The notes under the pieces were generated by a model that was given only the letters and a program-made list of their open reading frames with translations, had not been told where the DNA came from and did no database searches. From the NCBI GenBank assembly GCA_030740335.1, contig JASLXL010000037.1, positions 1 to 12,472 of the forward strand: a stretch of 12,472 nucleotides of DNA. Reading direction: 5' to 3'. Shown in pieces: positions 2-12,472 of the stretch (positions are counted from its first letter, which is position 1; each line of letters starts with the position of its first letter). The translations under genes and the position numbers were made by a program. This DNA comes from SAR202 cluster bacterium (lineage in GTDB: Bacteria; Chloroflexota; Dehalococcoidia; SAR202; CAJWER01).

Positions 2-1021
2 CCCAAGGCTTACGACTTCACGCTGATGGTCGCCACCGCGTCGGCCTACTTTGGGATTAGCTACGGGCTTCTCTGGAATGACTTCCGAGATTGGATGGGA
101 GGTTTCACACTGCTCCTGTCGCTGTTCTACGGCGGGATCGCCTACCTGGCCCTGCTGAGGATCAGGGAGCACGTGAACCTAGCGTTCATGTCCCTGGCCA
201 TCGCCCTGGTCTTCCTGACTATTGCAGTTCCGGTCGAGCTGGATCGCTCCTGGATAGCCGTGGCATGGTCGACCCAGGGGACGGTCCTCGTATGGCTCTC
301 TTTCCGCCTGCGAATGTGGAATCTCAGGGCGTCCGGCCTGTGTGTGTTTGCGGTTCTGGCAGTCCGTGTACTGGCGTTCGACACGACGATCGACGATCTG
401 GGAGACTTCCAGGTGATTCTGAACAGCCGGATGCTGGCGTTCGCCTCCGCCATCACGGCCCTCTATTTGGCCGCGTACTTGGTGAGGAGGGGAAGCCACC
501 TCATGCAGGAGCAACAGAGTAGCGGGGACGATAAGAGCAGAGCCGTTGGTGCCGACATACTCAGCCTGCCCAGCAACTTAATGGACAGCCTGAGGGATGT
601 GATGAATTCACGCCTCCTCTTCCCGGGGCTGCTAGTGACTGCCAACTTCCTGACCGTGTGGATCTTGAGCGCCGAGGTGATAGCCACCGTCGATAGCGAT
701 ATCGTAGACATGAGTAGGGAGGCTGAACCGCACGTCAAGAGTCTGTCGCTAAGCCTGCTCTGGGGACTCTACGCCAGCGTTATGCTGATTATCGGGATCG
801 TTCGGCGATGGCAGCCGGTGCGGCTGGGCGGGCTTGCCCTCCTGACGATCCCTGTAGCAAAGCTGTTCGTCTGGGACACCTTCAAGTTGGATCAGGGCTA
901 CAATATAGTGGCATACTTTTCGCTGGGCTTCATTCTGCTGGCCGGCGGCCTCCTCTATCAGCGCTACAGCGAGGCCATAAAGGGGTTCCTCTTCGAGGAG
1001 CAGGCCGGTGGTCCCGTCTAG
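2..1021 (+). CDS. DUF2339 family multi-pass membrane protein (C-terminal part; 5' end outside window)
   Basis: The frame is open from base 2, before the first ATG at 26, so the gene begins upstream of the window and only its C-terminal 339 codons are visible. The protein is a run of hydrophobic helices (roughly ten membrane segments) joined by short charged loops. The pattern matches the C-terminal half of DUF2339 proteins: a segment with WIAVAWSTQGTVLVWLSFRL near residue 85, a longer polar linker near residues 150-190, then SLLWGLYASVMLIIGIVRR and a final GLALLTIPVAKLFVWD segment ending in LLYQRYSE. The function of the family is unknown; it sits in the cytoplasmic membrane. Family assignment rests on recognised pattern, not a search. 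No obvious terminator follows the stop. Confidence 0.82.
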   Translation, partial: PKAYDFTLMVATASAYFGISYGLLWNDFRDWMGGFTLLLSLFYGGIAYLALLRIREHVNLAFMSLAIALVFLTIAVPVELDRSWIAVAWSTQGTVLVWLSFRLRMWNLRASGLCVFAVLAVRVLAFDTTIDDLGDFQVILNSRMLAFASAITALYLAAYLVRRGSHLMQEQQSSGDDKSRAVGADILSLPSNLMDSLRDVMNSRLLFPGLLVTANFLTVWILSAEVIATVDSDIVDMSREAEPHVKSLSLSLLWGLYASVMLIIGIVRRWQPVRLGGLALLTIPVAKLFVWDTFKLDQGYNIVAYFSLGFILLAGGLLYQRYSEAIKGFLFEEQAGGPV

Positions 1022-1180
1022 ATAACCGAAGATGTGTGGAAATCTCCAATCGGCTAGGTCCAAGGCGGGTGATGACTGTGCAGTGCCGATCGAGCCATGG
1101 ACAACAAACGTACTCCAGTGGAAGATGCCTGCAGTGGTAGATAGCTGATATCCCTCAAGTTACAAAAGGAGTGAACGGTC

Positions 1181-1525
1181 ATGGCAACACTTTACATTCG
1201 CACGTTCAGTTTCAAGGGCTCGTTGTCAGACGAAGTCGTCCATAGCGAACTAAAGTTCTTCATGGACGAAGTGATTCCGGCGATCCGGAATAGCCCCGGT
1301 GTCCGGTCAGCAAAGGTCTATTCAGGCGCAGGTGCTCTTCGATCTCAGCTGGAGCTTCTTGTCGAGATGGATGACGCCGCGGGATATGAGAAGATGTTGC
1401 TCGATCCGACCATTCGCAAGATTCTTGGAAGACTCTACAGTGCCTGGGATCTCAGCCGGTCCACCCAGACCTTTCTGCGCGAAGTAACCCCGGACTTGGT
1501 CGCGGCCCTGAGCAGCTCCGATTGA
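1181..1525 (+). CDS. small hypothetical protein, probable dimeric alpha/beta-barrel fold
   Basis: This 114-residue protein has a well-placed Shine-Dalgarno (AAAAGGAG at 1164-1171, 9 bases before the ATG), which supports the start. The order of predicted elements is beta (LYIRTFSF, residues 4-11), alpha (about 17-37), beta (about 41-63, with YSGAG), alpha (about 65-86), then a tail. This is the ferredoxin-like arrangement of dimeric alpha/beta-barrel proteins (EthD, NIPSNAP and ABM-like folds). No catalytic motif is recognisable and no function is assigned. It lies 159 bases after the membrane protein and converges on the propeller gene, so it is probably transcribed from its own promoter or by read-through. 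It is cytosolic: no signal peptide or membrane segment is seen. Confidence 0.7.
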   Translation: MATLYIRTFSFKGSLSDEVVHSELKFFMDEVIPAIRNSPGVRSAKVYSGAGALRSQLELLVEMDDAAGYEKMLLDPTIRKILGRLYSAWDLSRSTQTFLREVTPDLVAALSSSD

Positions 1526-1540
1526 TCGGGGCGAGGCCGG

Positions 1541-1562
1541 CCTTGTGTATGGGTACACAGGG
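1541..1562. terminator. hairpin between convergent genes, possible terminator without U-tract
   Basis: Nine bases (1541-1549, CCTTGTGTA) pair with 1554-1562 (TACACAGGG) around a TGGG loop, allowing one G-T pair. The hairpin starts 15 bases after the stop codon of the 1181-1525 gene and lies downstream of the minus-strand gene ending at 1658. No T-run follows on either strand, so intrinsic termination is uncertain. Confidence 0.35.
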
Positions 1563-1657
1563 CGGCAGTGTGTTTCAAGGTTGTGCCAGCCGTTTGGTGT
1601 CCAGCGTGCGTTTGGCATCGGAGTATCAGCCGAAGGGCAGGAAGACGGCAGGCGGCA

Positions 1658-3133
1658 CTACCGGTTGCGGAAGCGGAAGGCGTACAGGTCGGCGTCTTCA
1701 AGGACGAAGCGTAGTCGGATGGGCTGTCCGGCGAGGTCGCCGACGCCTGATCCAGCGTTCCAGTTCATGACGCCTGCTATCTCATCGCCGAACTTTTCGG
1801 GGCAATCTGCGAGCCCGTAACCTGGAATAGAGTGGCCTTCGGCGTCCTCGATCTCCACACGTACCGAACCGACGGCTGAGGTGGAGTAGTTCAACTCCAG
1901 CTCATCGCCTGTGAAGGTAAAAGGCCGGGTGGTGAATTCGCCTCCGCTGTAGCCGGCGTTGACCGACACGAACCCGTCCATGCGCAGCGAATAGCGTCTT
2001 ATGCGCTGGGACGGCAAATGAGAGTTCTCCATCCCGTACAAAGATAGTTCAGTGGGCGAGGTCTGGAGAATGCCTGTCTCGATGTAGACGCCACGGTCGT
2101 GCCAGTTACGCTGGTCTAGACCAGGTCTGATGAATGCCTCCTTGAAGCTACGGTCAAAGTGAAGCCCGTCTCGGCTTGACATGAAGACGATGTCGCTTAC
2201 CCCGGGGCTGCGTGTCCACTCGGGGTCCGGCGTGCGCTCCACCACGAATCGGGACGGAAACATCAGGTAGGTCCCCGGGGCTCGCTCGTACTGGACGCAC
2301 GCATTGGTGTAGAAGTGCTCGTCCGGCGTCCCGCCGGTATCGATAGGCTCCAGCTCACTCCAACTTCTGAAGTCTTTCGACGTAGCGCGGCGTATCCAGC
2401 GAACCCCTCCCCCAAACTCGTGCCCCTTGGTCTTCTCTATCACGGCTCCGGTGACAGTCGGCTCGAACCGGTCTTTCTCCCTGTCGTAGTAGACCGAGCC
2501 GTCAGGGTTGCCAACGGCTCGGGCGTACACAACGTATTGGCCGAGCGAGTAGTCCCAGAACGATACATTGATGGAGTCGAAAGGCCCATCTGTCAATATT
2601 GGCTCGTATTGGAGAAGGTGCCAGTTGATACCGTCGGGCGATCCAACGGCCAACAGATCGTAAGTCCGGACGACCGCCTTGTATCTCTCGTCATCACGTG
2701 CGTCCGGATTTGGGTCCTTGAACGGAACCATGTTCGCGCCCGGCCCAATCCAGACTGCGTTGTTCTCTGATGAGCCGTCGATCTCGTACAGACCAAGACT
2801 CGGTTTCTCCCAAGTGATCCCATCAACGCTCTCGACGTACGCTGTTGTCGCGTCGGGATAGCCACGGGGATCCATGGCCGTCGCATGGCCGCCGCGCCTC
2901 ACGATCGTGTTCGGATCGTGGTCGGTCCGGTACCACCCCCTGAAACGTCCGCCGTCCCTGATGAACGCACCTGCGCAGGGGCTCATGTCCCATGGCCGGT
3001 CGGCCATTATCGCCGGAGCCTCGCGCACAGGTTCATGCAGAACACGTGTCGTCCCTTTCGCCCCGTCAATCCAAAACTCGTCCACGAATAGTTGGCGGTC
3101 GGTGCCTATGTTCAAGTGCGTGTCAAGGTTCAT
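1658..3133 (-). CDS. five-bladed beta-propeller protein, GH32/GH43-like glycosidase family
   Basis: This 491-residue protein starts with RQLFVDEFWID (residues 13-23) followed by a stretch with WDMSPCAGAFIRDGGRFRGW. That is the usual opening of uncharacterised propeller proteins related to glycoside hydrolase families 32 and 43, common in planctomycetes and marine Chloroflexota. Repeated blade motifs are visible (SVDGITWEKPSLGLYE; GSPDGINWH; SRDGLHFDRSF), each a beta strand with a D-G turn and aromatic residues. The last 100 residues form a separate beta-rich domain ending in LYAFRFRNR. The role is probably binding or hydrolysis of a sugar or glycan; the catalytic acids cannot be assigned with confidence. 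No signal peptide is visible. No clear Shine-Dalgarno precedes the ATG at 3133 and the frame is open upstream, so the start is moderately secure. Confidence 0.75.
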   Translation of the reverse strand: MNLDTHLNIGTDRQLFVDEFWIDGAKGTTRVLHEPVREAPAIMADRPWDMSPCAGAFIRDGGRFRGWYRTDHDPNTIVRRGGHATAMDPRGYPDATTAYVESVDGITWEKPSLGLYEIDGSSENNAVWIGPGANMVPFKDPNPDARDDERYKAVVRTYDLLAVGSPDGINWHLLQYEPILTDGPFDSINVSFWDYSLGQYVVYARAVGNPDGSVYYDREKDRFEPTVTGAVIEKTKGHEFGGGVRWIRRATSKDFRSWSELEPIDTGGTPDEHFYTNACVQYERAPGTYLMFPSRFVVERTPDPEWTRSPGVSDIVFMSSRDGLHFDRSFKEAFIRPGLDQRNWHDRGVYIETGILQTSPTELSLYGMENSHLPSQRIRRYSLRMDGFVSVNAGYSGGEFTTRPFTFTGDELELNYSTSAVGSVRVEIEDAEGHSIPGYGLADCPEKFGDEIAGVMNWNAGSGVGDLAGQPIRLRFVLEDADLYAFRFRNR

Positions 3134-3206
3134 GGTCCATTCTAGTATCAGTGTCGGGTCATCATACGTCCCAGAAAGGGTCTGTGCGGCGGTAGTGGAT
3201 GTGACT

Positions 3207-3434
3207 ATGTTAAGGCTTAACGGATACCCTAGTAGCAGGGTTGGTCTCGGTGGCGAGGATCCTATTAAGGCTTATGCAGCTATACCACGACGCATTCTTA
3301 TCAATGACGACGGTTGGATCATGAGTGAAGCCGAGCCTCCTCTGGCTGTCAGCGATCTGAAGGAGCGAATGGTAGACACCTACTTGTGTTCCCTCGATTG
3401 TTGCCTGTTGAGCCCCAGATTCACCAGACGATAA
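3207..3434 (+). pseudogene. possible 5' relic of an unidentified gene
   Basis: A frame from an ATG at 3207 to TAA at 3434 changes character at about 3276, where it reads PRRILINDDGWIMSEAEPP and then SDLKERMVDTYL before turning to cysteine-rich sequence and a stop. The middle section has the composition of a true protein N-terminus and is divergent from the propeller gene, but it is too short for a full protein and has no Shine-Dalgarno. I read it as the start of a decayed gene broken near 3395. The family is not identified; it could also be chance. Confidence 0.3.
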
Positions 3435-3450
3435 CTGGACAGGTTCTGGA

Positions 3451-3534
3451 GAGGCCGTAGCTACGTAAATACAGCGCTTAAGTTCAGATGATTCTTAATC
3501 AGTAGGCTCTCGGTTCAAGTCCGAGGCTGAGGTG
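3451..3534 (+). pseudogene. tRNA-like relic (tRNA-Lys(CTT)-like anticodon loop plus intact T-arm)
   Basis: Bases 3509-3525 form a perfect T-arm: CTCGG and CCGAG flank a TTCAAGT loop. Upstream, TTCTTAA at 3492-3498 resembles the anticodon loop of tRNA-Lys(CTT), and TAGCT..AGC at 3458-3475 resembles a D-arm. However, the D-to-anticodon distance is about nine bases too long, the anticodon stem has a mismatch, and the bases before TAGCT do not pair with the bases after the T-arm. It is therefore a relic or a chance partial match, not a working tRNA. It lies in the gene-poor stretch beside the gene relic at 3207-3434. Confidence 0.3.
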
Positions 3535-3620
3535 GAGAAGTTGAGGGCTACGGTGCGACCGGTAGTCGTGCACCATGGATAACGTAGATTAGGTGTCCAA
3601 TTAACGTGCCTATGAGCGGT

Positions 3621-3656
3621 GCAGTCAACCCCTCTCGGAGGGGGAGTTGGCTCTGC
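3621..3656. terminator. GC-rich hairpin downstream of the cupredoxin gene
   Basis: A stem of CCCTC (3630-3634) with GAGGG (3638-3642) around TCG is extended by CAAC/GTTG (3626-3629 with 3646-3649) and GCAG/CTGC (3621-3624 with 3653-3656), with small bulges. It lies 50-90 bases beyond the stop of the minus-strand cupredoxin. There is no clear T-run. A role in ending or stabilising that transcript is possible but not shown. Confidence 0.35.
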
Positions 3657-3688
3657 ACGCCTGTACAATGCGGTGTAGGGGGTATAGA

Positions 3689-3700
3689 GTTTCTAGAAAC
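3689..3700. repeat. 12-bp perfect palindrome
   Basis: GTTTCTAGAAAC is fully self-complementary and lies 9 bases beyond the cupredoxin stop codon (3709-3711). It may be a short hairpin in the 3' untranslated region or a protein site; nothing further can be said from the sequence. Confidence 0.4.
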
Positions 3701-3708
3701 TAGGCAAT

Positions 3709-4149
3709 CTACTCGACGGTTATCTTACCCTTCATCCCTAGCGCCTCGTGCGGGATGCAGATTAGCTCGTACTCACCCGCTTTGTCGAATGTGAATGTGA
3801 GGGTCTCCGTGTCCCCGGCATCAATTGCCACGTCGATTCCCAAGTCGTCGACCGTAAAGGTGTGGAATTCGCTCTCGGCCAAGATCTTGAAATCTACCTT
3901 TTCGCCGACGCTGAAGGTAAACTCATTCGGGTCGAACTTGTAGTCTCCGCTGCCACCTGGATCCTGATTGGTGACAGTGATCCTGGTGGCGTCTCCCGCC
4001 GCGGACCCGGAGTCGGAGGCTGGCTGGGCGGAGCCTGAATCTGACGATACCACGGGTGCATCGTCCGCTGAATCGTCGCTTCCGCACGCAACGAAGGCGA
4101 ATATAGCCACAATAGTAACGATAATTGACAGGGTCGTAAACTTGCGCAA
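3709..4149 (-). CDS. cupredoxin-domain lipoprotein (type 1 copper protein)
   Basis: The start is best placed at TTG 4149: AAGGAG at 4155-4160 is 5 bases upstream, whereas the ATG at 4197 has no such site and lies upstream of the likely transcription start. This gives 146 residues: a hydrophobic signal (about 5-21) ending in FVAC, so Cys22 is the probable lipidation site; a Ser/Asp-rich low-complexity linker (23-53); then a single cupredoxin domain (55-146). The copper ligands are visible as His96 (FHTF) and Cys131, His134 and Met139 (CIPHEALGM), the plastocyanin/amicyanin type 1 order. It probably acts as an outer-face, membrane-tethered electron carrier; the partner is unknown. The -3 lipobox residue is Phe rather than Leu, slightly atypical. 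It has its own promoter and diverges from ssrA. Confidence 0.87.
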   Translation of the reverse strand: MRKFTTLSIIVTIVAIFAFVACGSDDSADDAPVVSSDSGSAQPASDSGSAAGDATRITVTNQDPGGSGDYKFDPNEFTFSVGEKVDFKILAESEFHTFTVDDLGIDVAIDAGDTETLTFTFDKAGEYELICIPHEALGMKGKITVE

Positions 4150-4197
4150 CGTGTCTCCTTCATTTGATAGTGCCGAGGGTTTGGTGAAACCTTTCAC

Positions 4198-4227
4198 ATT
4201 TTATCAGGACGGTCGGAGGACCGTCAA
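4198..4227 (-). promoter_or_regulatory. sigma70-type promoter of the cupredoxin gene
   Basis: On the minus strand TTGACG (4222-4227) and TAAAAT (4198-4203) are separated by 18 bases, and the -10 is preceded by TGA, making an extended -10. The predicted transcription start near 4190 leaves a leader of about 40 bases before the TTG codon at 4149. Confidence 0.6.
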
Positions 4228-4232
4228 CGGTC
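4209..4232. promoter_or_regulatory. three ACGGTC half-sites overlapping the cupredoxin promoter
   Basis: ACGGTC occurs at 4209-4214 and 4227-4232, and in inverted form (GACCGT) at 4219-4224. They form two overlapping inverted repeats: GACGGTC-N4-GACCGTC (4208-4225) and GGACCG-TCAA-CGGTCC (4218-4233). They cover the -35 and spacer of the cupredoxin promoter, the place expected for a repressor operator. The regulator is unknown. Confidence 0.4.
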
Positions 4233-4284
4233 CGTGGAGTCCGAGCTGGCTTAAGACAGAGTTGGCTTTGGGACGTTGGGCCTA

Positions 4285-4293
4285 TGGTAGAAT
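4285..4293 (+). promoter_or_regulatory. probable extended -10 of the tmRNA promoter
   Basis: TGGTAGAAT matches an extended -10 (TGN then TAGAAT, 5 of 6 to consensus). It ends 19 bases before the mature tmRNA 5' end, so transcription would start near 4300 and leave a short leader for RNase P. The best -35 candidates (TTGGCT at 4262, TTGGGA at 4268) are poorly spaced. Confidence 0.4.
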
Positions 4294-4312
4294 GGTAGGC
4301 GACCCGCCACCT

Positions 4313-4666
4313 GGGGACGCGTGGGTTCGACAGGGGGCTTCTCTGCGGGATTGCAAGCCGAGGCGCCATCACACCTCGTAAAAAGATGGCACAAAAGTAA
4401 CCGGCAACACACAACCGGCTCTAGCCGCCTAAGGGCGGTTACGTCCACCGCTTCCTTACCCTGAGGGTGGCGACTGGGCGACGCAATTCGGGGCGCTGCC
4501 GCGATGATGCCGATGATCGCGGCCTAAGAACATCGGCTGGCCCCGTGGACTCCGGATCCGGTTAGGACCCACATTGGGGCGAGAATCAAATACCGGATAA
4601 GCTTGTAGTAGATTCTAGACGGAGCGCTTTCTGGACGGGGAGTTCGACCCTCCCCCGTCTCCACCA
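4313..4666 (+). ncRNA. ssrA: transfer-messenger RNA (tmRNA)
   Basis: This 354-base gene rescues stalled ribosomes by trans-translation, acting with SmpB and alanyl-tRNA synthetase. The 5' end GGGGACG (4313-4319) pairs with CGTCTCC (4656-4662, one G-T pair), followed by A and an encoded CCA (4664-4666). Conserved tmRNA elements are present: GGGTTCGACAGGGGG near the 5' end, CTCGTAAAAAGATGGCACAA before the tag, a stop codon inside a CCGCC/GGCGG hairpin, pseudoknot-rich sequence, GATAAGCTTGTAGTAG near the 3' end, and a T-arm with loop TTCGACC. The T-stem reads as 6 bp (4637-4642 with 4650-4655) rather than 5. The 3' end is the insertion point of the island and is overlapped in antisense by the recombinase relic. 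Confidence 0.96.
4403..4432 (+). other. tmRNA tag reading frame (GNTQPALAA)
   Basis: The resume codon is GGC at 4403, after AAAAGTAACC, and the frame ends at TAA 4430-4432. It encodes GNTQPALAA, so the degradation tag added after the tmRNA-borne alanine would be A-GNTQPALAA. The C-terminal ALAA is the usual ClpXP-type proteolysis signal. The stop lies in the loop of a CCGCC/GGCGG hairpin (4425-4438), as usual in tmRNA. Confidence 0.88.
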
Positions 4667-4747
4667 CGAACACGAAACGCCGTCAGCCTCTTGCCCACCG
4701 GGCGGAGGCTGATTGGCTGTTTGGGGCTCGGCATCAGGGTCGTGGAC
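4639..4747. repeat. left attachment repeat (attL-like) in the ssrA 3' end
   Basis: This 109-bp segment recurs in direct orientation at 12364-12472, with mismatches at 4700, 4721, 4726, 4729, 4733 and 4745. Bases 4639-4699 (61 bp) are identical. The first 28 bases are tmRNA T-arm, acceptor strand and CCA; the rest codes (minus strand) for the recombinase C-terminus. Homology stops sharply at 4638, inside the T-stem, which marks the edge of the crossover region. Confidence 0.9.
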
Positions 4748-5204
4748 CAGGGCAACAGCAGAGCCCTCGCGAGTGGTCGCAACTTGAAAAACAGGCTTGA
4801 ACGGGGCCTTGGGCTTGATAGCGACGATCCTCTTCTCGTCCTTCGCGTCCACGTAGACCGCGTCCAACATGGTCAGCAACAGTTTTCGGCGCTCCCTTTC
4901 ATTGGCCCCCGACCATAGCTCCGGTAGTCGCTCGATCAGCCGACCAGCCTCGCTGGCGGCATCGGCCTCAGGAGCAACAAGAGACTCTAGTTCCATCTCC
5001 AACTTGCGTTTCTGTCTGCGATACTCCTCGTCGTCATAGACCCCGTCCACCGAGCGAGACTCATGGGTGGACGACGCTCTCAGGACGAGTCGGATGATGG
5101 AACGTAGCTTGGCTTCGTAGTACGACGCATGCGCCGGTTTCACACGATAGGGGTTATCGTGCCCGATCTGAAAAGGTGCAATGCGTTCGTAGCAAAAGCG
5201 GGAG

Positions 5205-5210
5205 TATAAT
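5205..5210 (+). promoter_or_regulatory. -10 element of the SDR gene promoter
   Basis: A perfect TATAAT lies 53 bases before the GTG start, predicting a leader of about 45 bases. The matching -35 position (about 5182-5187, TGCGTT) is poor, so this would be weak or activator-dependent. Confidence 0.45.
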
Positions 5211-5262
5211 CGACCGCACCAAAAGGACTTATTGTATGGAACCCAGCAGTGGAGGTGCTTGA

Positions 5263-6063
5263 GTGGATCAAAAGCTTGATGGGAAAATAGCCCTCGTGAC
5301 GGGTGCAAGCAAGGGGATCGGTCAAGGGCTAGCGATTGGAATGGCTGCCGCGGGTGCGGTGGTGGCGATTAACTACAAGACAGATCTGGCTGGTGCCCAC
5401 GATACTTGCAAGAGAATCCATTCCGCCGGTGGGGAAGCCGAACCATTTCAGACCGATATCGGCTCCAAGGAGGGATTTGAAAACCTGATAGAGGAAGTCT
5501 ATCAACATTACGGACGCCTAGACGTGCTGGTAAACAATGCTGCCAGGACCAGATTCGGACCACTATGGAAAGTGACCGAGTCGGACTTCAACGATGTAAT
5601 AAACACCATCCTTCGCGGCCCATTTTTCGGGTCGGTGGCCGCTGCCCGAAAGATGCAGGAGCAAGGCGGATCGATCATCAACATAAGCTCTATCGCAGTG
5701 AGACAGGTCATGGCCAATCACTCAGCCTATACCATGGCAAAAGGTGGCCTTGAGTCCCTCACCCGTCAACTGGCGCTGGAGTTGTCGCCAAACATTCGCG
5801 TCAACGCGATTGCGCCCACCGCTACGCGCAACCAGCGCAACCTGGCATACGACCCCGACTACGAGAGGAAGTGGGCCAGGGTCACTCCAGTTGGCCGAAT
5901 CGCAGATGTCACAGACTACGTCGGACCTTGCGTGTTCCTGGCAGGCCAAGACTCCGCCCTGGTCACGGGCCAGATTCTGTACGTAGACGGCGGTTGGACG
6001 CTACAGGGCAACGCGCCTGACGTTTCAGACTTCGACTTTTCGGCCGATCGACAGAGAGATTGA
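5263..6063 (+). CDS. short-chain dehydrogenase/reductase (SDR family, NAD(P)-dependent)
   Basis: This 266-residue protein is a full-length classical SDR. The GTG start at 5263 is supported by GGAGG at 5251-5255, 7 bases upstream. The cofactor-binding TGASKGIG lies at residues 13-20, NNAA at 91-94, and the catalytic set is Asn114, Ser143, Tyr156 and Lys160 (YTMAK). The C-terminal FLAGQDSALVTGQILYVDGGW (about 228-248) is the usual end of the FabG-like fold. It interconverts an alcohol and a ketone in the cytosol. Beside iolD, iolE and an iolH-like gene, a cyclitol or sugar alcohol is a reasonable substrate, but nothing in the sequence fixes it. It is the first cargo gene of the island and diverges from the recombinase relic. 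Confidence 0.92.
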   Translation: MDQKLDGKIALVTGASKGIGQGLAIGMAAAGAVVAINYKTDLAGAHDTCKRIHSAGGEAEPFQTDIGSKEGFENLIEEVYQHYGRLDVLVNNAARTRFGPLWKVTESDFNDVINTILRGPFFGSVAAARKMQEQGGSIINISSIAVRQVMANHSAYTMAKGGLESLTRQLALELSPNIRVNAIAPTATRNQRNLAYDPDYERKWARVTPVGRIADVTDYVGPCVFLAGQDSALVTGQILYVDGGWTLQGNAPDVSDFDFSADRQRD

Positions 6064-6093
6064 TTAGAGGAAAGGTTGACCCGATGTGATGCC

Positions 6094-6423
6094 CTACTCA
6101 CAATCTTGCCTTCCTGGGAAATTACTCCTGTCCACCTCCTCGCCAACCATCCAGATCCGGGCGCTCTGAATGAGGTGGTCGACTTCCTGCCTGTGTTTGG
6201 CGAGCCGGTCGGAGAACCGGTGAACATCCAGCGCAGCCTCGTCAGCGTATTGTTCATATAGGGCGTACCTATTTGGATCCTCCGTGTGCACATAGACATC
6301 GAAAGCGAGACAACCTTTCTCGCCTGCCAGTGTGGCTTTCGAATGCTGACGCATCGACTCGTCAAAAGACTCACGCTGCATAGGGTCAATGTCCAACTCC
6401 ACAAGAAATCCTATTTTGCTCAT
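6094..6423 (-). CDS. ABM-domain (YgiN-like) putative quinol/antibiotic-biosynthesis-type monooxygenase
   Basis: The start is placed at ATG 6423 (MSKIGFLVEL), because GGAGGAG at 6430-6436 lies 6 bases upstream; the ATG at 6438 overlaps that site. The 109-residue product shows the ABM dimeric alpha/beta-barrel pattern: strand FLVELDI (6-12), helix with MRQHSKATLAGEKGCLAFDV (24-43), then RYALYEQYADEAALDVHRFS (about 52-71), the typical EVY-x-DEAAL-x-xH signature of the family. Members are cofactor-free monooxygenases acting on quinones or polyketides, or proteins of unknown role. It is cytosolic. It converges with the SDR gene, the two stops being 30 bases apart. The substrate is unknown. Confidence 0.83.
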   Translation of the reverse strand: MSKIGFLVELDIDPMQRESFDESMRQHSKATLAGEKGCLAFDVYVHTEDPNRYALYEQYADEAALDVHRFSDRLAKHRQEVDHLIQSARIWMVGEEVDRSNFPGRQDCE

Positions 6424-6439
6424 AGCCTTCTCCTCCATT

Positions 6440-7223
6440 AGTGTCTGTTCACGATTCCATGAGACTACCCACGGTTTTTGGAAAAATGTGACCCTTAAGT
6501 AGCTCTCGAGCCATCAATTGGGGTTCATTGGAAGCAAGGGTTGGTTCAAAGCATTGACCGTTTCCCTTAAGCAAGGAAGGATGTGGACTAGGAACGTGGT
6601 TTTTGATCAAGTCAGGGTGGAATTATAGGAATACGTCTATACTATTTCACAAGACCAGTTATCCTGTGAATCGGCACTCCGAATGGCTGACCGCCAAAAG
6701 GGGATCATTGAAGATCCAGACCTGTTGTCGACTGAGTGCAGAGGCTTGATGTACTTGCCATGCCTCTACAATTTCGTCGGCCCTTTTGCGGATGGGCTAC
6801 TTCTTCCACTTATCAAAAACCCCAATGTGCGTAATCTAGTGCACTGGAAATTGAGCGATAGGTACAACTCGTCAGGGTGAACGTTGTCTGGCACCAACCG
6901 GGAGCATCTGCCTACGATCTCTATGCCGACGTTCCGTTATGGGTGGTTCTCCGACCAAAGTGTCCAAGTCACCAAGAATATCAAGTGCAGCATTCGGTTA
7001 AACTGGATGCTCTCTAATTCCACATACGAAAACGAAACCAGACTCCAATTACCGAACAGTCACCACATGAGAATCCCTAACGTGTGGTTAGACGTTGGCG
7101 CCAACACCACCGTTGATGAACAGCAAGTCGGGGTGCTCATTCCCTATTTCGCCAGATTTGCGGAGCCTCGATACTGCATAAACTTGCATGTGAGTCTGTA
7201 GAGTCGCACCTAAATTGACCAGG
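6440..7223. other. gene-poor, AT-richer stretch, probably decayed DNA
   Basis: No convincing gene is found between the ABM gene and the small frame before iolD. Plus-strand frames of 65 codons (6683-6880) and 105 codons (6884-7201, TTG start) lack Shine-Dalgarno sites and recognisable motifs. Minus-strand frames are broken by stops, although short runs such as HPDLLFINGGVGANV (near 7090-7140) read like coding sequence. The base composition is noticeably more AT-rich than the flanking genes. Eroded gene remnants are the likeliest content. Confidence 0.45.
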
Positions 7224-7364
7224 ATGCCAGACGACGTCAAAGAGATGTGTCTCCACATCGCGGAAGACTACCAAAGCACGGACGTTCAATTTAAAATCCG
7301 CGTGACTCCGACCGCAACTGGCGAAAGTCGGATCACAATCAATCCACTGGGAGTGATGCACTGA
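7224..7364 (+). CDS. 46-codon hypothetical small frame just upstream of iolD
   Basis: An ATG frame at 7224 encodes 46 residues (MPDDVKEMCLHIAEDY..GVMH) and ends with TGA 7362-7364, where the last A is the first base of the iolD Shine-Dalgarno. Such placement would allow translational coupling. No proper ribosome-binding site precedes the ATG (AGG directly abuts it) and no family is recognised. It may be the tail of a lost gene, a leader peptide, or chance. Confidence 0.3.
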   Translation: MPDDVKEMCLHIAEDYQSTDVQFKIRVTPTATGESRITINPLGVMH

Positions 7365-7377
7365 AGGAGGAACTGAA

Positions 7378-9267
7378 ATGACCGCAGGCAGCAACGATAC
7401 GGTCCGACTGACTGTCGGACAGGCAATAGTTAAGTACCTACAGGTCCAATTTAGTGAGCGCGATGGAGATAGGCGTCGCTTGATTCACGCGGCATTCGGT
7501 ATTTTCGGTCACGGCAACGTACACGGCTTGGGGCAAGCATTTTACGAGTACGGTACCGACATCCCGTTCTATCAGCCACGCAACGAACAGTCCATGGTTC
7601 ACACTGCCATTGGATTCGCCAAAGCGAATCAGCGGCTGGCGACTATAGCTTGCACCTCTTCTATCGGCCCAGGGGCCACCAACATGCTCACAGGAGCCGC
7701 AACAGCCACTATCAACCGGGTGCCGGTTCTGCTATTCCCCTCAGATTACTATATCACTCGTCACCAGGGCCCAGTGCTTCAACAACTGGAGCATCCCACT
7801 TCTGCGGACATCAGCGTCAACGACGCCTTCCGTCCACTTAGCCGATTCTACGACCGTATCTCCCGTCCTGAGCATGTCCTGACTGCTCTGCCCGAGGCCA
7901 TGCGCGTGCTAACCGATCCCGCCGAGACCGGCGCCGTCACCGTCTCGCTACCCCAGGATATTCAAGCTCACTCCTATGCCTACCCTGTACGTCTCTTTGA
8001 AGAGCGGGTTTGGAGAGTGGAGCGACGCCTCGCTGATCCGCAGCGAATTGGCGAGGCTGCGGCGCTGCTGAGGAACGCTCGCAGCCCGATCATCATAGCT
8101 GGCGGTGGTGTCCACTATTCCCAAGCCTGGGATGAGCTTGAAACCTTCTCCGAGAGATTGGGTATCCCGGTGGTGGAGACCTTCAGCGGCAAGGGGGCAT
8201 TTCGCAACAAGTCGCCACTTCTGGTGGGGGCTCATACCATCACAGGTCCCACGTCAGCGGCGAAGCTGATGAATGACACGGACCTGGTGATCGCCGTAGG
8301 CACGCGACTTACCGACGTAGTCACTGGGGCTCAGTCGGCGTTCAGGAATCCGGACGTCAAATTCGTGGGCATTAACGTGACTAGCCATGACGCATTCAAG
8401 CAGGGAGCACTTCCCATCCTCGCGGACGCCCGAGAGGCACTCAAGGCACTTATCGAAGCGTCTGGTATAGCGGGTATCAAACCCAATCCAGAATACCTCG
8501 GTAATATCGCAGCAGCGAAGAAAGATTGGGAGGGCCAGCTCAGAAACGAAGTCTACAACCACATACCCGGAGAGCCCATGGGTCAGGGAGAGCTGATCAA
8601 GATACTCAACGACGGCGCACAGGAGGGTGACACGATTCTCGCTGCCGCTGGTACGCCCCCTGGAAACCTCGTAAACCTCTGGGATGCAACGGGCGGACGC
8701 AACTGCCATATAGAGTTCGGGAACTCTTGCATGGGTTACGAGATTCCGGGTGGCATTGGAGTACGCATGGCCCAGCCTGAAGGTGAGGTCTACGTGCTAA
8801 TAGGTGACGGGACGTACCTACTTAGCCCATCGGAGATCATGACGGCCGTTCAGGAAGGCCTGAAGTTGACGGTTGTGATCTCCGAAAATCACGGATTCCA
8901 GTCTATACGGCAACTCCAGATGGCCCGGACCGGCAGAGCCTTCGCTACGGAGTTCCGTAATCGCGACAAACCCACGGGACGACTGGAAGGGGGCTATGTG
9001 GAGGTGGACCTCGCCAAGATCTCGGAGGGTCTGGGCGCTCACGTGTGGAAGGTGACAACTCCCGAGGAGGTTCGTATCGCTATGGGCGAGGCTCGGGAGG
9101 AGCCAGGCACTTGCGTCATAATCGCGGAGACAAATCCAGACCGCTATGTCCCTCCTTCGAACGTTTGGATGGACGTGGAGACCGCAGAGGTGAGCAACGA
9201 TCCTGTGACGCAAGCACTCAGAGTAATTTACGAAGAAGAGCGTAAGCAACAGCGCTTCCACTACTAG
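7378..9267 (+). CDS. iolD: 3D-(3,5/4)-trihydroxycyclohexane-1,2-dione acylhydrolase (IolD), ThDP-dependent
   Basis: IolD hydrolyses trihydroxycyclohexane-1,2-dione (from inosose) to 5-deoxy-glucuronate in myo-inositol catabolism, with thiamine diphosphate as cofactor, in the cytosol. The 629-residue length fits the family. AAGGAGG at 7364-7370 lies 7 bases before the ATG. Visible features are the N-terminal ThDP-enzyme PYR domain with IFGHGNVHGLG (42-52) and the activating Glu70 in PRNEQ; ACTSSIGPGATNM (91-103); QLEHPTSADISVNDAFRPLS (136-155), which replaces the usual IolD VSVNDCFRPVS; a central domain (about 220-360); and the PP domain with GDG (476-478) and ENHGFQSI (503-510) as the metal/ThDP motif. 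It is followed 48 bases later by iolE, so an operon is likely. Other ThDP lyases are less likely given these IolD-specific stretches. Confidence 0.9.
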   Translation: MTAGSNDTVRLTVGQAIVKYLQVQFSERDGDRRRLIHAAFGIFGHGNVHGLGQAFYEYGTDIPFYQPRNEQSMVHTAIGFAKANQRLATIACTSSIGPGATNMLTGAATATINRVPVLLFPSDYYITRHQGPVLQQLEHPTSADISVNDAFRPLSRFYDRISRPEHVLTALPEAMRVLTDPAETGAVTVSLPQDIQAHSYAYPVRLFEERVWRVERRLADPQRIGEAAALLRNARSPIIIAGGGVHYSQAWDELETFSERLGIPVVETFSGKGAFRNKSPLLVGAHTITGPTSAAKLMNDTDLVIAVGTRLTDVVTGAQSAFRNPDVKFVGINVTSHDAFKQGALPILADAREALKALIEASGIAGIKPNPEYLGNIAAAKKDWEGQLRNEVYNHIPGEPMGQGELIKILNDGAQEGDTILAAAGTPPGNLVNLWDATGGRNCHIEFGNSCMGYEIPGGIGVRMAQPEGEVYVLIGDGTYLLSPSEIMTAVQEGLKLTVVISENHGFQSIRQLQMARTGRAFATEFRNRDKPTGRLEGGYVEVDLAKISEGLGAHVWKVTTPEEVRIAMGEAREEPGTCVIIAETNPDRYVPPSNVWMDVETAEVSNDPVTQALRVIYEEERKQQRFHY

Positions 9268-9315
9268 CCGACGTAGGCTCATTACCCACATACTTCCACA
9301 GGAGGGCTTCAGAAA

Positions 9316-10203
9316 ATGCAAATAAGAATCGGGGTGGCACCGGACTCATGGGGTGTCTGGTTTCCTAGCGATCCCAGGCAAATCCCGTGGCAGAGGTTCC
9401 TTGACGAAGTCGTCCAGGCTGGCTATGACACCATCGAGTTGGGCCCATACGGGTATTTGCCGACCGATTTACCGACTCTGAGCTCAGAGTTGGAGGCTCG
9501 TGGACTTACAGTGTCTGGCACCTTTGCCATGGCGGACCTCGCCGATCCGGCCCAGTGGTCTGAGCTCGAAAGGCAGATCGTTAGCGCTTCGACAACCCTG
9601 CAGGCCCTAGGAGCGGGTTTTCTCGTGCTGATAGATGACACCTACACTGACCTGTTCACAGGTGAGTCCAGAGGACCAGTTCAACTGGACGCCGCCGCCT
9701 GGAAACGCCTAATAGATACCACTCACAGAGTGGCCGACATCGTACGAGATCAGTTTGGCCTAAAGCTTGTATTTCATCCACATGCGGAGACACACGTTGA
9801 ATACGACGACCAGATCGAATTGTTCTTAGACCAGACCGATCCAGACCGTGTGTTCATCTGTCTGGACATCGGCCATCATGCATACCGTGGTGGCGACCCT
9901 GTCGATTTCATGAGACGACATCACCAAAGGATCCCGTATTTACACCTCAAGAGTGTGGACGCGGATATCCAGAGAAGTGTAGAAGCGGACGGCATACCGT
10001 TCGCCACCGCCGTCACTATGGGGATGTTCTGCGAGCCGTCAGAGGGCAAAATCGACTTCGTGTCATTTCGCGACGTGCTCAATGAGGTTGATTTCGATGG
10101 GTGGGCAATAGTCGAGCAGGATCTTTACCCAACTTCGTTCGACAAGCCGTTGCCCATAGCCGCCCGTACCCGAAAGTACCTGAGTGACATCGGTATCGGA
10201 TAA
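9316..10203 (+). CDS. iolE: inosose dehydratase / IolE-type sugar isomerase-epimerase
   Basis: IolE dehydrates scyllo-inosose (2-keto-myo-inositol) to the trihydroxycyclohexanedione used by IolD, so it supplies the substrate of the upstream gene product. The 295-residue TIM barrel has AGGAGG at 9300-9305, 10 bases before the ATG. Typical IolE motifs are APDSWGVWF (8-16), YDTIELGPYGYLP (37-49), HPHAETHVE (154-162), CLDIGHHAYRGGDP (182-195), YLHLKSVD (208-215) and IVEQD (265-269). The metal-binding residues are expected among Glu158, Asp184, His210 and Glu267, by family analogy. It is cytosolic. It sits in an iolD-iolE order with a 48-base gap. A related isomerase/epimerase acting on another keto-cyclitol or sugar cannot be ruled out. 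Confidence 0.83.
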   Translation: MQIRIGVAPDSWGVWFPSDPRQIPWQRFLDEVVQAGYDTIELGPYGYLPTDLPTLSSELEARGLTVSGTFAMADLADPAQWSELERQIVSASTTLQALGAGFLVLIDDTYTDLFTGESRGPVQLDAAAWKRLIDTTHRVADIVRDQFGLKLVFHPHAETHVEYDDQIELFLDQTDPDRVFICLDIGHHAYRGGDPVDFMRRHHQRIPYLHLKSVDADIQRSVEADGIPFATAVTMGMFCEPSEGKIDFVSFRDVLNEVDFDGWAIVEQDLYPTSFDKPLPIAARTRKYLSDIGIG

Positions 10204-10407
10204 GCAAGTCTAGGACGTCAGCGATAATGGGACACGTACAGGGGTGAAGAACCGTGATGGATTAGAAGGTGACATGAGTTCCAAGGCTGGGATTAGAGTG
10301 CCTCAGAAACGAAGTCTCAGTGCCCCCGGCTATATATAAATCAGTGTTCGCACAAGACCGCAGCCAGGAGACCTGGTCGTTCGTGCAGCGGGTGGAGATC
10401 GGCGATT
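10204..10407. other. intergenic region before the IS relic; nothing clear
   Basis: No gene or terminator with a T-run is seen after iolE. A short hairpin CCAGG-AGA-CCTGG lies at 10364-10376. A plus-strand frame at 10320-10616 overlaps the IS relic in another frame and has no support. Confidence 0.4.
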
Positions 10408-10824
10408 CGACGTCAGTACACTCCCGAAGAGAAGGTTCGCATTGTGTTGCAGGGGTTCCGCCAAGAAGGTATCAAGCCATACACCAACCAAACATGGATC
10501 AAGACGTTCACGGAGGCAGGCAAGGAGAAGTTGGACCGCTAAAGTGTGCAGGATGCCACAAAGTAGGAGATCGGGGAGCTCAGGCAGGAAAACGGAGAGT
10601 TGACGCAGTTTGTTGAGTATCTCTCATTCCAGTTGTCCCTTCTCAAAACAACGGCCATCGAAGCCGTCGTGGCCTACCACAACTACCCGAGGTATCATTA
10701 GGCACTGGGTAACATCACTCGTGCAGATGTGTTCCATGGGAAACTGGAACAGGTACTGCAGAGCATAAAGGAGTCACAAATCCAGACAATCGAACGGCGA
10801 AGTCTCTACAACAAGGCCGTCTGA
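10408..10824 (+). pseudogene. decayed IS3-family transposase (OrfA joined to OrfB C-terminus)
   Basis: One frame from 10408 to TGA 10822-10824 reads RRQYTPEEKVRIVLQGFRQE, the start of an IS3/IS911-type OrfA. It continues with IKPYTNQTWIKTFTEAGKEK, then EIGELRQENGELTQFVEYLS, the OrfA leucine-zipper region. It passes directly into AYHNYPRYHXALGNITRADV, the end of the OrfB integrase-core protein (X is a stop). Three in-frame stops (TAA near 10540, TAG near 10564 and 10699) break it. Part of the OrfA helix-turn-helix is missing, and the whole DDE catalytic core of OrfB has been deleted between about 10645 and 10660. It is inactive. Terminal inverted repeats were not found. It lies between iolE and the iolH-like gene. 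Confidence 0.78.
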
Positions 10825-11039
10825 AAGTTCACGCCCACTCCTCGCACCGTTAATCGCTCGAGGATCAATATGACCCATTTTCGCTGGTTGTCAACACGAA
10901 ATATCGCTTCTCACATCCCCATCGGTGGTCCCAAATTCACTGACCTTCCATAGGCCGGCGAATGGACATCAAGTCTCACTCCTATCATGCTTTAACCAAG
11001 TGATCTAGGCATGATCGCTCAAAGTATGTGTGTTGGTAT
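10825..11039. other. intergenic region between the IS relic and the iolH-like gene
   Basis: No gene is supported here. A short plus-strand run at 10881-10907 (SLVVNTKYR) resembles the start of IS200/IS605-type transposases, but it is too short to call. No T-rich terminator for the minus-strand gene ending at 11040 was identified. Confidence 0.4.
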
Positions 11040-11954
11040 TCAGGACTCGATTGACACAGGCTGAGTAGTCCAATATTTGTCAACATAATACCGGATTTGC
11101 TCGAGCATTGACCGCGAGCACTCGTCAGCTTGGTCGACTCCATATGAGAACACCTGAGCCGTCATAATCCCATCGAAACCCACTTCGCTGAGCGTCTTGA
11201 ACACCAGGTCCCAGTCGATCTCGCCGTCTCCGATCTTCAGATGTTGATGAACTCTAGCAGTCGTTCCTGGCGGGTTTACAACGTAGCGCCAGCCGATCTT
11301 GTGGTTGAATGTATCAGCAACATGGACCTGAGCCAGAACAGGCGCTGCATAACGAATCATCTCAGCCGTATCATCACCGAGATGGTATGTATGTGGCGTG
11401 CAGTACAGGTACTTGACATAGGAAGATCCGATTGCGCGCACCAGATTAACCCCCGTAAAGTTGTCCTCAACGAAATCATCAGGATGGGGTTCTAGGTGAA
11501 GAGGTAAGCTCTCCCGTTCGAACACCGGAAGCAACTCTTCCATCGAGTTCCAGAACGCAGTTTCGCACTCCTCAGCCATCTCGGGCCCAACTCTATAGTT
11601 GGACGATTGAGGAGACGGCCCCCTATCAAAAGTGGAGTTGACCGTTTCGCACCCAAGTTCGACGCAGATTTCGATGGCTCTCCTCCAATTCCGCACTGCG
11701 GCACGACGCTCGTCCTCGTTCGGACTCGCCCATCGATATGCCGCAAGTAGCGAAACCAATTTCACGCCTGTCTCTCGCAGCGCTTCCTTTAATTCTCGGA
11801 TGGTGTCCGCATTTGCCCTCGGGTAGAGGTGTTCCGGGAAAAATTCGTCGCGAGAGCACATCTCCAGATTCTCGTATCCTAATTCCGCCGCCATATAGAC
11901 AGTCTCTCGAATAGAGAGGTCAGAGTGCATGAAAGGATCCAAGGCAATCTTCAT
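11040..11954 (-). CDS. iolH: IolH-like sugar phosphate isomerase/epimerase (TIM barrel)
   Basis: The start is set at ATG 11954 (MKIALDPFMH), which has AGGAG at 11963-11967, 8 bases upstream; an in-frame ATG at 11990 overlaps the -10 element and is unlikely. The product is 304 residues of the xylose-isomerase-like TIM-barrel superfamily. Motifs fit IolH proteins found in inositol clusters: KIALDP (2-7), ELGYENLEM (24-32), YRWASPNEDERRAAVRNWRR (73-92), HLEPHPDDFVED (153-164), YCTPHTYHLGDD (184-195), QVHVADTF (209-216), NPPGTTARVHQHLKIGDGEI (227-246). Metal binding is expected from Glu155, Asp/His in the 184-213 region and the C-terminal HQH. The precise reaction of IolH is not settled. It is cytosolic and is transcribed toward iolE, with the IS relic between them. 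Confidence 0.78.
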   Translation of the reverse strand: MKIALDPFMHSDLSIRETVYMAAELGYENLEMCSRDEFFPEHLYPRANADTIRELKEALRETGVKLVSLLAAYRWASPNEDERRAAVRNWRRAIEICVELGCETVNSTFDRGPSPQSSNYRVGPEMAEECETAFWNSMEELLPVFERESLPLHLEPHPDDFVEDNFTGVNLVRAIGSSYVKYLYCTPHTYHLGDDTAEMIRYAAPVLAQVHVADTFNHKIGWRYVVNPPGTTARVHQHLKIGDGEIDWDLVFKTLSEVGFDGIMTAQVFSYGVDQADECSRSMLEQIRYYVDKYWTTQPVSIES

Positions 11955-11972
11955 CGTGCTTGCTCCTGTGTA

Positions 11973-12023
11973 ATTGACATTCGGCACCAATTATCTAAAA
12001 CCGGTTGTCAATCGGCAATGACA
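11973..12023. promoter_or_regulatory. repeated TGTCA/TGACA half-sites around the iolH-like promoter
   Basis: TGTCA-N8-TGACA (12006-12023) is an inverted repeat covering the -35 element, and a further ATTGACA at 11973-11979 is the exact inverse of TGTCAAT at 12006-12012, on the other side of the -10. Two similar arms also share a following CGG (TTGACATTCGG at 11975 and TTGTCAATCGG at 12005). The layout suggests a dimeric repressor binding at two places, possibly for inducer-controlled sugar use. The regulator is not in the window. Confidence 0.4.
11990..12018 (-). promoter_or_regulatory. promoter of the iolH-like gene
   Basis: On the minus strand TTGCCG (12013-12018) and GATAAT (11990-11995) are 17 bases apart. 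The predicted start near 11983 gives a leader of about 30 bases with the AGGAG site at 11963-11967. A perfect TTGACA also lies here (12006-12011) but has no -10 at proper distance. Confidence 0.5.
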
Positions 12024-12313
12024 GACAGTTATGGAACCGAGAAGACTATTGTTTTGGAGAACGGACAGCGAAACTACCTGAGGATCCTATTGTAGTGTAT
12101 GCGTCTTCCGATTGTATGTAGCTACAGCTTCTTTTGCCCTCCCCAAAACACTGGTCCAAGTGTTCGGTGGCACTCGAAGGCTGATAAGGCAAATCGAAAC
12201 GTCAGCCTATATGGTCGAGATGCTGGTGCGGACGAGATGACAAAGCCTCTCGACTGGGAAGTCCTTCCGTCAGGTTGGTGGAACAACTCCAGGGAGAGAC
12301 ATCGGATTGAGTC
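12024..12313. other. right-end spacer of the island; no gene recognised
   Basis: No supported gene lies between the iolH-like promoter and the end of the right-hand recombinase. A plus-strand frame from 12099 runs antisense into the attachment repeat and has no Shine-Dalgarno or recognisable motif. Confidence 0.5.
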
Positions 12314-12472
12314 TCAGTTCAAAGACAAAGCACAGGTTCGTCTGTCCCTTGCGTGTTCCAGGAGGAGTTCGACCCTCCCCCGTCTCCACCACGAACACGA
12401 AACGCCGTCAGCCTCTTGCCCACCAGGCGGAGGCTGATTGGCTGTCTGGGTCTTGGCGTCAGGGTCGTGAAC
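12314..12472 (-). CDS. second serine recombinase, C-terminal end (partial; gene continues past the window)
   Basis: The minus-strand frame open at the window edge reads VHDPDAKTQTANQPPPGG, then WWRRGRVELLLEHARD, and stops at TGA 12314-12316. It is in register with, and nearly identical to, the C-terminus of the recombinase relic at 4586-5308 (VHDPDAEPQTANQ..WWRRGRVELPVQ) until the repeat ends. Four of the six differences fall in third codon positions, consistent with a coding sequence under constraint. The last 16 or so residues (from LLLEHARD) are unrelated to the left copy, because they come from DNA beyond the att core. Whether the upstream part is intact cannot be seen. It probably acts at the ssrA attachment site. 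Confidence 0.7.
   Translation of the reverse strand, partial: VHDPDAKTQTANQPPPGGQEADGVSCSWWRRGRVELLLEHARDRRTCALSLN
12364..12472. repeat. right attachment repeat (attR-like), displaced ssrA 3' fragment
   Basis: This is the direct-repeat partner of 4639-4747: 103 of 109 bases match and the first 61 are identical. Bases 12364-12391 duplicate the last 28 bases of the tmRNA (T-arm, acceptor strand and CCA) without the rest of the gene, as expected for a site displaced by insertion. The repeat may continue beyond the window edge. Confidence 0.88.

Follow-up and report, generated by a model that had tools for sequence, protein, structure and literature searches.

Results

A direct repeat at the 3' end of ssrA marks two element junctions

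The stretch of DNA analysed here, called the window throughout, comprises positions 1 to 12,472 of contig JASLXL010000037.1 from a SAR202 cluster bacterium of the class Dehalococcoidia (assembly GCA_030740335.1). It carries ssrA, the gene for transfer-messenger RNA (tmRNA; 4313-4666, plus strand; tag GNTQPALAA; identified by ARAGORN and Rfam), and its 3' end appears to be the target of large serine recombinase elements. We interpret the locus, with a probability of roughly 0.86, as ssrA-specific genomic islands, of the type found in Dehalococcoidia, arranged in tandem. A window-wide repeat search returned a single long direct repeat (4639-4747 and 12364-12472) with starts 7725 bp apart; the next-best repeat families measure only 23 and 22 nt, at 78 and 77% identity. 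The two copies are identical at 103 of 109 positions, the first 61 without a mismatch, and the C-terminus of the same recombinase, ending QTANQPPPGGQEADGVSCSWWRRGRVEL, is encoded antisense (minus strand) at both. This recomputation agrees with a preliminary description of the window, which had reported a 109-bp repeat at the tmRNA 3' end with a recombinase C-terminus reading into each copy. The right copy reaches the last base of the window, which therefore fixes its right edge.

Within the repeat, the final 25 bases of ssrA (4642-4666, plus strand; GTTCGACCCTCCCCCGTCTCCACCA) reappear at 12367-12391. By comparison with other genomes, these 25 bp, and not the whole repeat, are the common attachment (att) core; the three extra bases on the left of the repeat are probably incidental, and the 81 bp on its right align as homologous recombinase sequence. 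The left copy thus reads as an ssrA arm joined to an element arm, a B.P' junction (attL) with ssrA on its left and, on its right, the P' arm motif CGAACAC (4667-4673, plus strand) and the recombinase. At the right copy, the second core (plus strand) has a P arm, GTGTTCCAGGAGGA (12353-12366, plus strand), on its left, which forms the right end of the island, and a P' arm on its right. The latter, with the final codons of the next element's recombinase (12392-12472, minus strand) and a hairpin at 12408-12437, is cut by the window end. The segment GTGTTCCAGG (12353-12362), to the left of the right copy, matches the element-end motif, the P-type site of the window having GTTCCAG in place of GTTTCAG. 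By these arms the right copy is an internal P.P' junction, the right end of one element set against the recombinase of the next. As it is P.P' and not attR, removal of the unit between the repeats would be an attL x attP-like reaction and not the usual attL x attR.

Anatomy of the attachment site across Dehalococcoidia

We collected 131 distinct core sites from loci picked partly by recombinase match and partly by core pattern, which is not a random sample, and assigned junction classes with regular expressions; a few assignments are doubtful, for example L190 and L197 (labels with G, L and P numbers denote genomes, loci and proteins of our scans). The native right flank follows ssrA at 69 sites, 38 are B.P' junctions and nine, including that of the window, are P.P' junctions; seven combine a P arm with a native right flank, six are unclassified and two are too short. 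The motif GTTTCAG stands at a single fixed offset in 14 of 16 sites with a P arm on the left, the window being one of the other two, and in none of 109 with ssrA on the left. A GAAACA start is found in 32 of 47 P' flanks and in 0 of 69 native flanks, a contrast partly built into the class rule. The P and P' arms (GTGTTTC and GAAACAC) are inverted repeats 32 bp apart, centred at the boundary GTTCGACTC/TCC. In other genomes, such as G209 and G011, P.P' junctions occur on the same contig as ssrA itself. The earlier proposals that two related serine recombinase elements are stacked at ssrA, and that a discrete unit lies between the repeats, are both supported. Core base 8 seemed to track the left arm in G011, G033 and G299, but in the full set of sites all classes contain both C and T, so this base gives no more than a hint of the crossover side.

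The left recombinase is a remnant

The recombinase of the left element (4642-5050, minus strand) amounts to a C-terminal stretch of about 136 residues. Its frame continues through the att site into ssrA and stops at 4586-4588. Full-length enzymes align with the window frame only between VDGVYDD, at about 5050, and the att core; upstream of VDGVYDD the frame differs, so the fragment begins downstream of all three domains of such enzymes (Resolvase, Recombinase and zinc ribbon), each of which is carried by all three full-length relatives that we scanned. Searched alone, the fragment matches nothing in Pfam or NCBIfam. By this alignment the left enzyme is a remnant of about a quarter of the protein, lacking the catalytic domain. 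An element with such a remnant should not move itself, and the 7.7-kb island is probably non-autonomous and mobilisable in trans. The fragment is 54% identical over 105 residues to the recombinase at ssrA of G098, and the full-length recombinase of the SAR202 locus L224 is 54% identical to the G098 enzyme over 511 residues.

A public protein search with the fragment gave 483 of 1229 candidates at an E-value of 0.001, and we examined the best 120 of the 483. Recombinase and/or zinc-ribbon domains are present in many, although not all, of the longer homologues among them, and in the few cases where an organism is named (P0077, P0086, P0115) it belongs to Dehalococcoidia. One protein, P0001 (from a contig of 2032 bp), has the same upstream junction as the window, KPAHASYYEAK...SRS/VDG, and 96% identity over 71% of the query. 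Its tail is RVELHLEHG, whereas that of the window is RVELPVQ; the latter is antisense ssrA coding, and the P arm encodes LKH or LEH at this place. The two tails differ as P arm and ssrA would encode, which points to the same truncated element in two positions: probably beside ssrA in the window, and following another element in the case of P0001, which is known from its protein only. Across the 120 homologues, 46 tails run into ssrA, 40 into a P arm and 21 otherwise, while 10 lack the motif and three are too short, a distribution suggesting that close relatives often carry stacked copies. A similar ending, EHGxxVLLAA followed by a stop at one length, is shared by 27 of the 40 P-type tails (P0004, P0005, P0010 and P0035 among them). 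It is present in none of the P.P' rows examined, and the L013 fragment ends similarly in KLPVLVAA. This ending might be the natural recombinase C-terminus, encoded across the site on a circular element.

Searches of viral contigs with the fragment (eight pattern-matching stretches) and with a recombinase alignment (270) gave no confirmed relative, and phage records searched with the fragment gave no match. At the truncation point, the remnant starts ...GGTGGACGGGGTC (5041-5049, minus strand) and the ssrA arm reads ...TCTGGACGGGGAG (4632-4640, plus strand); the shared TGGACGGGG may be fortuitous or may record recombination at a similar-looking site. Beside ssrA in L008 (255-980), the recombinase has an apparent internal in-frame deletion that fuses about 110 N-terminal residues to the C-terminal part.

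A conserved hairpin in the P' arm

Just past the CCA end of ssrA, on its strand, the P' arm contains a terminator-like hairpin without a strong T run, TCAGCCTC...GAGGCTGA (4683-4712, plus strand; fold z-score -5.3), which lies inside the recombinase gene and antisense to it. Within 55 nt of CCA, fold z-scores below -2 were obtained for 36 of 47 B.P' flanks and 8 of 10 P.P' flanks; a control stretch of the same flanks (nt 76-130) gave 3 of 46 and 1 of 9, respectively, and native ssrA flanks gave 51 of 87. Stems of at least eight pairs are present in 49 of 57 P' flanks, and in these the stem starts a median of 9 nt after CCA and the median T content is 4 in 10 nt.

Covariation was analysed in 15 rows selected because their geometry was equal; the two copies of the window, L253, L116 and L040 were left out as misaligned or badly cut, and the result speaks for the family and not for the window's own copy. 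In this alignment, 97.2% of the cells are paired and two-sided changes occur in 8 of the 12 pairs. This was matched by none of 500 shuffles and one reached the pair-type count, although relatedness inflates such controls. There are 17 G.U cells versus 2 C.A cells, that is, pairs that would wobble on the other strand; this favours an RNA of the ssrA strand as the folded form, with the reservation that codon constraint could bias the count. G005 has a P-type site on the contig of ssrA, 25.6 kb beyond the gene, and behind this site stands a hairpin resembling those that follow unoccupied ssrA genes; a similar hairpin is found behind a P site of G299, on a contig other than that of ssrA. Such native-type hairpins behind P sites fit an integration that displaces the native ssrA terminator. 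The hairpin of the P' arm is plausibly its replacement, and a limited search of the open literature found no publication proposing this.

Cargo, flanking gene and distribution of relatives

Between the repeats we identified a short-chain dehydrogenase/reductase (SDR) family oxidoreductase (5263-6063, plus strand), a protein with an ABM domain (antibiotic biosynthesis monooxygenase family; 6094-6438, minus strand), IolD, trihydroxycyclohexane-1,2-dione acylhydrolase (7378-9267, plus strand; TIGR04377, 773 bits, cut-off 715), an IolE-like protein (9316-10203, plus strand; TIGR04379, 175 bits, below the cut-off of 290) and a sugar isomerase/epimerase-like AP_endonuc_2 TIM barrel (11040-11990, minus strand; all NCBIfam matches below cut-off). 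These matches suggest a cargo for inositol or sugar catabolism. Upstream of ssrA, a 491-residue protein (1658-3133, minus strand) matches no Pfam or NCBIfam family within the limits applied; a homologue (62% over 297 residues) is upstream of ssrA in G407 too.

The tmRNAs nearest to that of the window (77-80%) come from G463, G453, G385, G435 and G407, members of the same order as the SAR202 genome G003. The flanks of ssrA are P'-type in G463, G453 and G435, and not in G407 and G385. The latter two are unoccupied, but they are related sites and not an empty site of the same species. A genome scan recovered 18 recombinase loci, all in Chloroflexota, with a tmRNA in the fetched stretch of 11. Of 294 genomes of the class, sampled evenly from a larger group, 103 contained the exact core pattern and 14 at least two core copies; the reversed control gave 0 in every row. 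At an E-value of 0.001, the recombinase had matches in 70 of 393 genomes of the class and in 66 of 247 of the order; the weakest matches in each list are likely to include generic serine recombinases. For the genome-scan loci only, a contig end lies less than 700 bp from the core at 8 of 36 B.P', 2 of 38 native and 0 of 4 P.P' sites. Given such breaks inside the recombinase gene, ssrA arrays may be under-reported in metagenome assemblies.

Two loci carry further genes near these sites. On the P-arm side of a SAR202 P.P' junction, L224 encodes (1047-3967) a CDC48-like AAA ATPase beside a protein with helix-turn-helix and Hsp20 matches. Near a full recombinase, L223 encodes proteins in which MopE-type metal-binding motifs recur, together with an open reading frame of 2073 residues (7296-11925 and 981-7202).

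Discussion

Proposed mechanism and alternative explanations

Beyond the junction classes, the recombinase homology, the truncation and the family-level covariation of the hairpin, which can be read from the sequences, we infer mobility, an enzyme acting in trans and a terminator role. A large serine recombinase would recombine an excised P-core-P' element with the T-arm/acceptor end of ssrA, and the inserted element would restore the 3' end of the gene. Since the recombinase gene runs antisense across the site, its last codons come from whatever lies beyond. Each later element would insert where the previous one had done so and displace the older ones outward, with P.P' junctions left behind. 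The left island has lost most of its recombinase and keeps both ends, and would move only with a neighbour's enzyme, for example one entering from the right. The hairpin of the P' arm would probably replace the ssrA terminator pushed far downstream by the insertion. More tentatively, and with less than even confidence, we propose that the islands are built to leave ssrA working, by supplying both a 3' end and a replacement terminator or RNA 3'-end hairpin antisense to the recombinase gene, and that the recombinase C-terminus, completed by ssrA or by a neighbouring element, reports the integration state and may determine in which direction recombination runs. The latter idea extends a suggestion made in the accessible text of PMC3146451.

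The repeat could have other origins. If the contig end had been extended into a copy of the left repeat, there would be no second element; the right repeat does stop exactly at the window end, and related contigs sometimes break just inside the recombinase gene, as the B.P' sites in the scan illustrate. However, none of the four P.P' sites showed such a break, the copies differ at six positions in 109 bp, the left flank of the right copy is a P arm found independently in other genomes, P.P' junctions share a contig with ssrA elsewhere, and contig breaks at these places fit a multi-copy gene. We consider an assembly artefact very improbable, and the right copy, with its six differences and the element-end motif on its left flank, has no appearance of a misassembled duplicate, a possibility that the preliminary description had named as a challenge to its view. 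Scarcely more probable is an array made by duplication or by homologous recombination between recombinase genes, with no site-specific event involved. Both copies share the 81 bp of recombinase sequence and truncated recombinases occur at several loci; yet the P arm, at its expected spacing from the core, would not arise from recombination within that gene, and internal sites of relatives carry the same arm.

The hairpin deserves a separate weighing, because it might serve DNA recognition by the recombinase or the recombinase mRNA instead of the end of ssrA. Its place within the att region and the recombinase gene, its retention at internal P.P' sites without an adjoining ssrA and the lack of a strong T run in the window copy speak for such a role, while the excess of G.U over C.A cells on the ssrA strand and a position mirroring that of the hairpins after unoccupied ssrA genes speak against it. 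On balance we regard this alternative as rather unlikely and prefer a replacement terminator.

Several observations weigh against a tandem array of mobile islands with built-in terminators. Apart from the C-terminal remnant, no integration-module genes were found among the scanned open reading frames of the window, and the second recombinase is visible only as its last codons before the window end. The unoccupied sites come from related genomes and not from this species. A consensus terminator scan did not call the window hairpin, and 13 of 57 P' flanks did not reach a z-score below -2, nor did 3 of the 9 P-type sites whose right flank is native. Finally, P.P' junctions imply attP x attL or attP x attR reactions, reportedly beyond ordinary serine integrases: according to the accessible parts of PMC3783163, these do not recombine other site pairs, with attP x attP reported for A118 and Ccr. 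Arrays of this kind, set beside such strict pairing, imply relaxed pairing or a helper factor here.

Our results indicate that the ssrA island machinery by which dehalogenase genes are known to spread in Dehalococcoides has a wider use within this class; it extends to the order of SAR202, and in the window it carries catabolic cargo. They also yield a precise anatomy of the att site, with P arm, core and P' arm and a centre near GTTCGACTC/TCC. Two questions follow: by what route a serine recombinase builds P.P' arrays, which should be beyond enzymes confined to attP x attB, and whether a gene invaded by mobile elements receives a new terminator from them.

Comparison with known systems

Tandem ssrA islands were described in Dehalococcoides by McMurdie et al. 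2011 (PMC3146451). In the accessible text of that paper, there are 31 islands. A module of the recombinase DsiB, DsiA, a RecF-like protein, ParB, Mom and a 700-residue protein is carried by 16 of them, with DsiB always overlapping attL, and the 15 module-less islands were proposed to move with neighbours. The same text notes that the DsiB C-terminus may be completed by a neighbour or a circle, and reports a dsiB relative with an ssrA repeat on a deep-ocean fosmid (EU016565), so a spread beyond Dehalococcoides was already indicated in 2011. The preliminary description had called the use of ssrA by a large serine recombinase less usual; in this bacterial class it is in fact established, as the accessible parts of PMC3146451 and PMC13390414 document.

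The window resembles the Dehalococcoides islands, as far as the accessible text of PMC3146451 describes them, in its insertion in the ssrA T-loop, tandem islands bounded by direct repeats, a recombinase 3' end that overlaps attL with its stop only beyond the island, and the existence of islands without an integration module. Of the features of DsiB-type islands, the window shows the boundary at the ssrA 3' end with a direct repeat and the tandem arrangement (P.P' at 12353-12398); the recombinase overlapping attL is represented by the C-terminal remnant, with the catalytic part absent. The truncated recombinase sets the window island apart. The window also differs in its cargo, which is inositol/sugar-catabolism-like and not reductive dehalogenases, and in its tmRNA, closest to that of the SAR202 order.

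Relatives of the window's enzyme have ParB and Mom near the recombinase, another likeness to the accessible account in PMC3146451. In L224 the recombinase is accompanied by a 111-residue open reading frame, ParB_N and Mom, and no DsiA-like gene was seen between the recombinase and Mom. ARAGORN found no tRNA on L224; the published tRNA-Gly-like locus in mom is a pseudo-tRNA, which the program may miss. In G098, successive open reading frames of 550, 206, 148, 210, 230 and 721 residues match, in order, Resolvase (the first two), nothing (the third), ParB_N, Mom, and DUF3631 with weak primase-type matches. None of the searched stretches of G029, G198, G113, G064, G098 and G209 contains the exact upstream motif of PMC3146451, although two internal G029 sites agree with it at 14 of 15 positions. 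In the main text of PMC3146451, as accessible, the words terminator, hairpin and stem-loop are absent, and the accessible sections do not mention inverted att arms.

A Dehalogenimonas ssrA island with dcpA as cargo starts right after ssrA, at 1,384,297 in D. formicexedens NSZ-14, according to the accessible part of PMC13390414. This published start is one base past the core end, 1384296, in G219; by the coordinate match, G219 is most likely this strain, and its recombinase is homologous to that of the window (54%). The Dehalogenimonas account, in its accessible part, names 25-bp and 16-bp repeat pairs and no internal junction anatomy (PMC13390414). Genomic islands have been predicted in a SAR202 genome, and the accessible text of that report contained no match to recombinase, integrase or ssrA (PMC10444878).

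In the staphylococcal cassette chromosome mec (SCCmec), CcrA and CcrB are likewise large serine recombinases acting at one single-copy essential gene. SCCmec also forms tandem cassettes, its target gene being rlmH, unlike ssrA here. Ccr-mediated attP x attP recombination is reported in the accessible parts of PMC3783163. SCCmec differs in its two-enzyme requirement, as stated in the accessible text of PMC3146451, and is likened here by description, not by sequence. The window array itself belongs to the known ssrA island system of Dehalococcoides and Dehalogenimonas, in which use of ssrA by a serine recombinase is established; to that system it adds a different cargo, a tracing into the order of SAR202 and a probable built-in replacement of the ssrA end signal.

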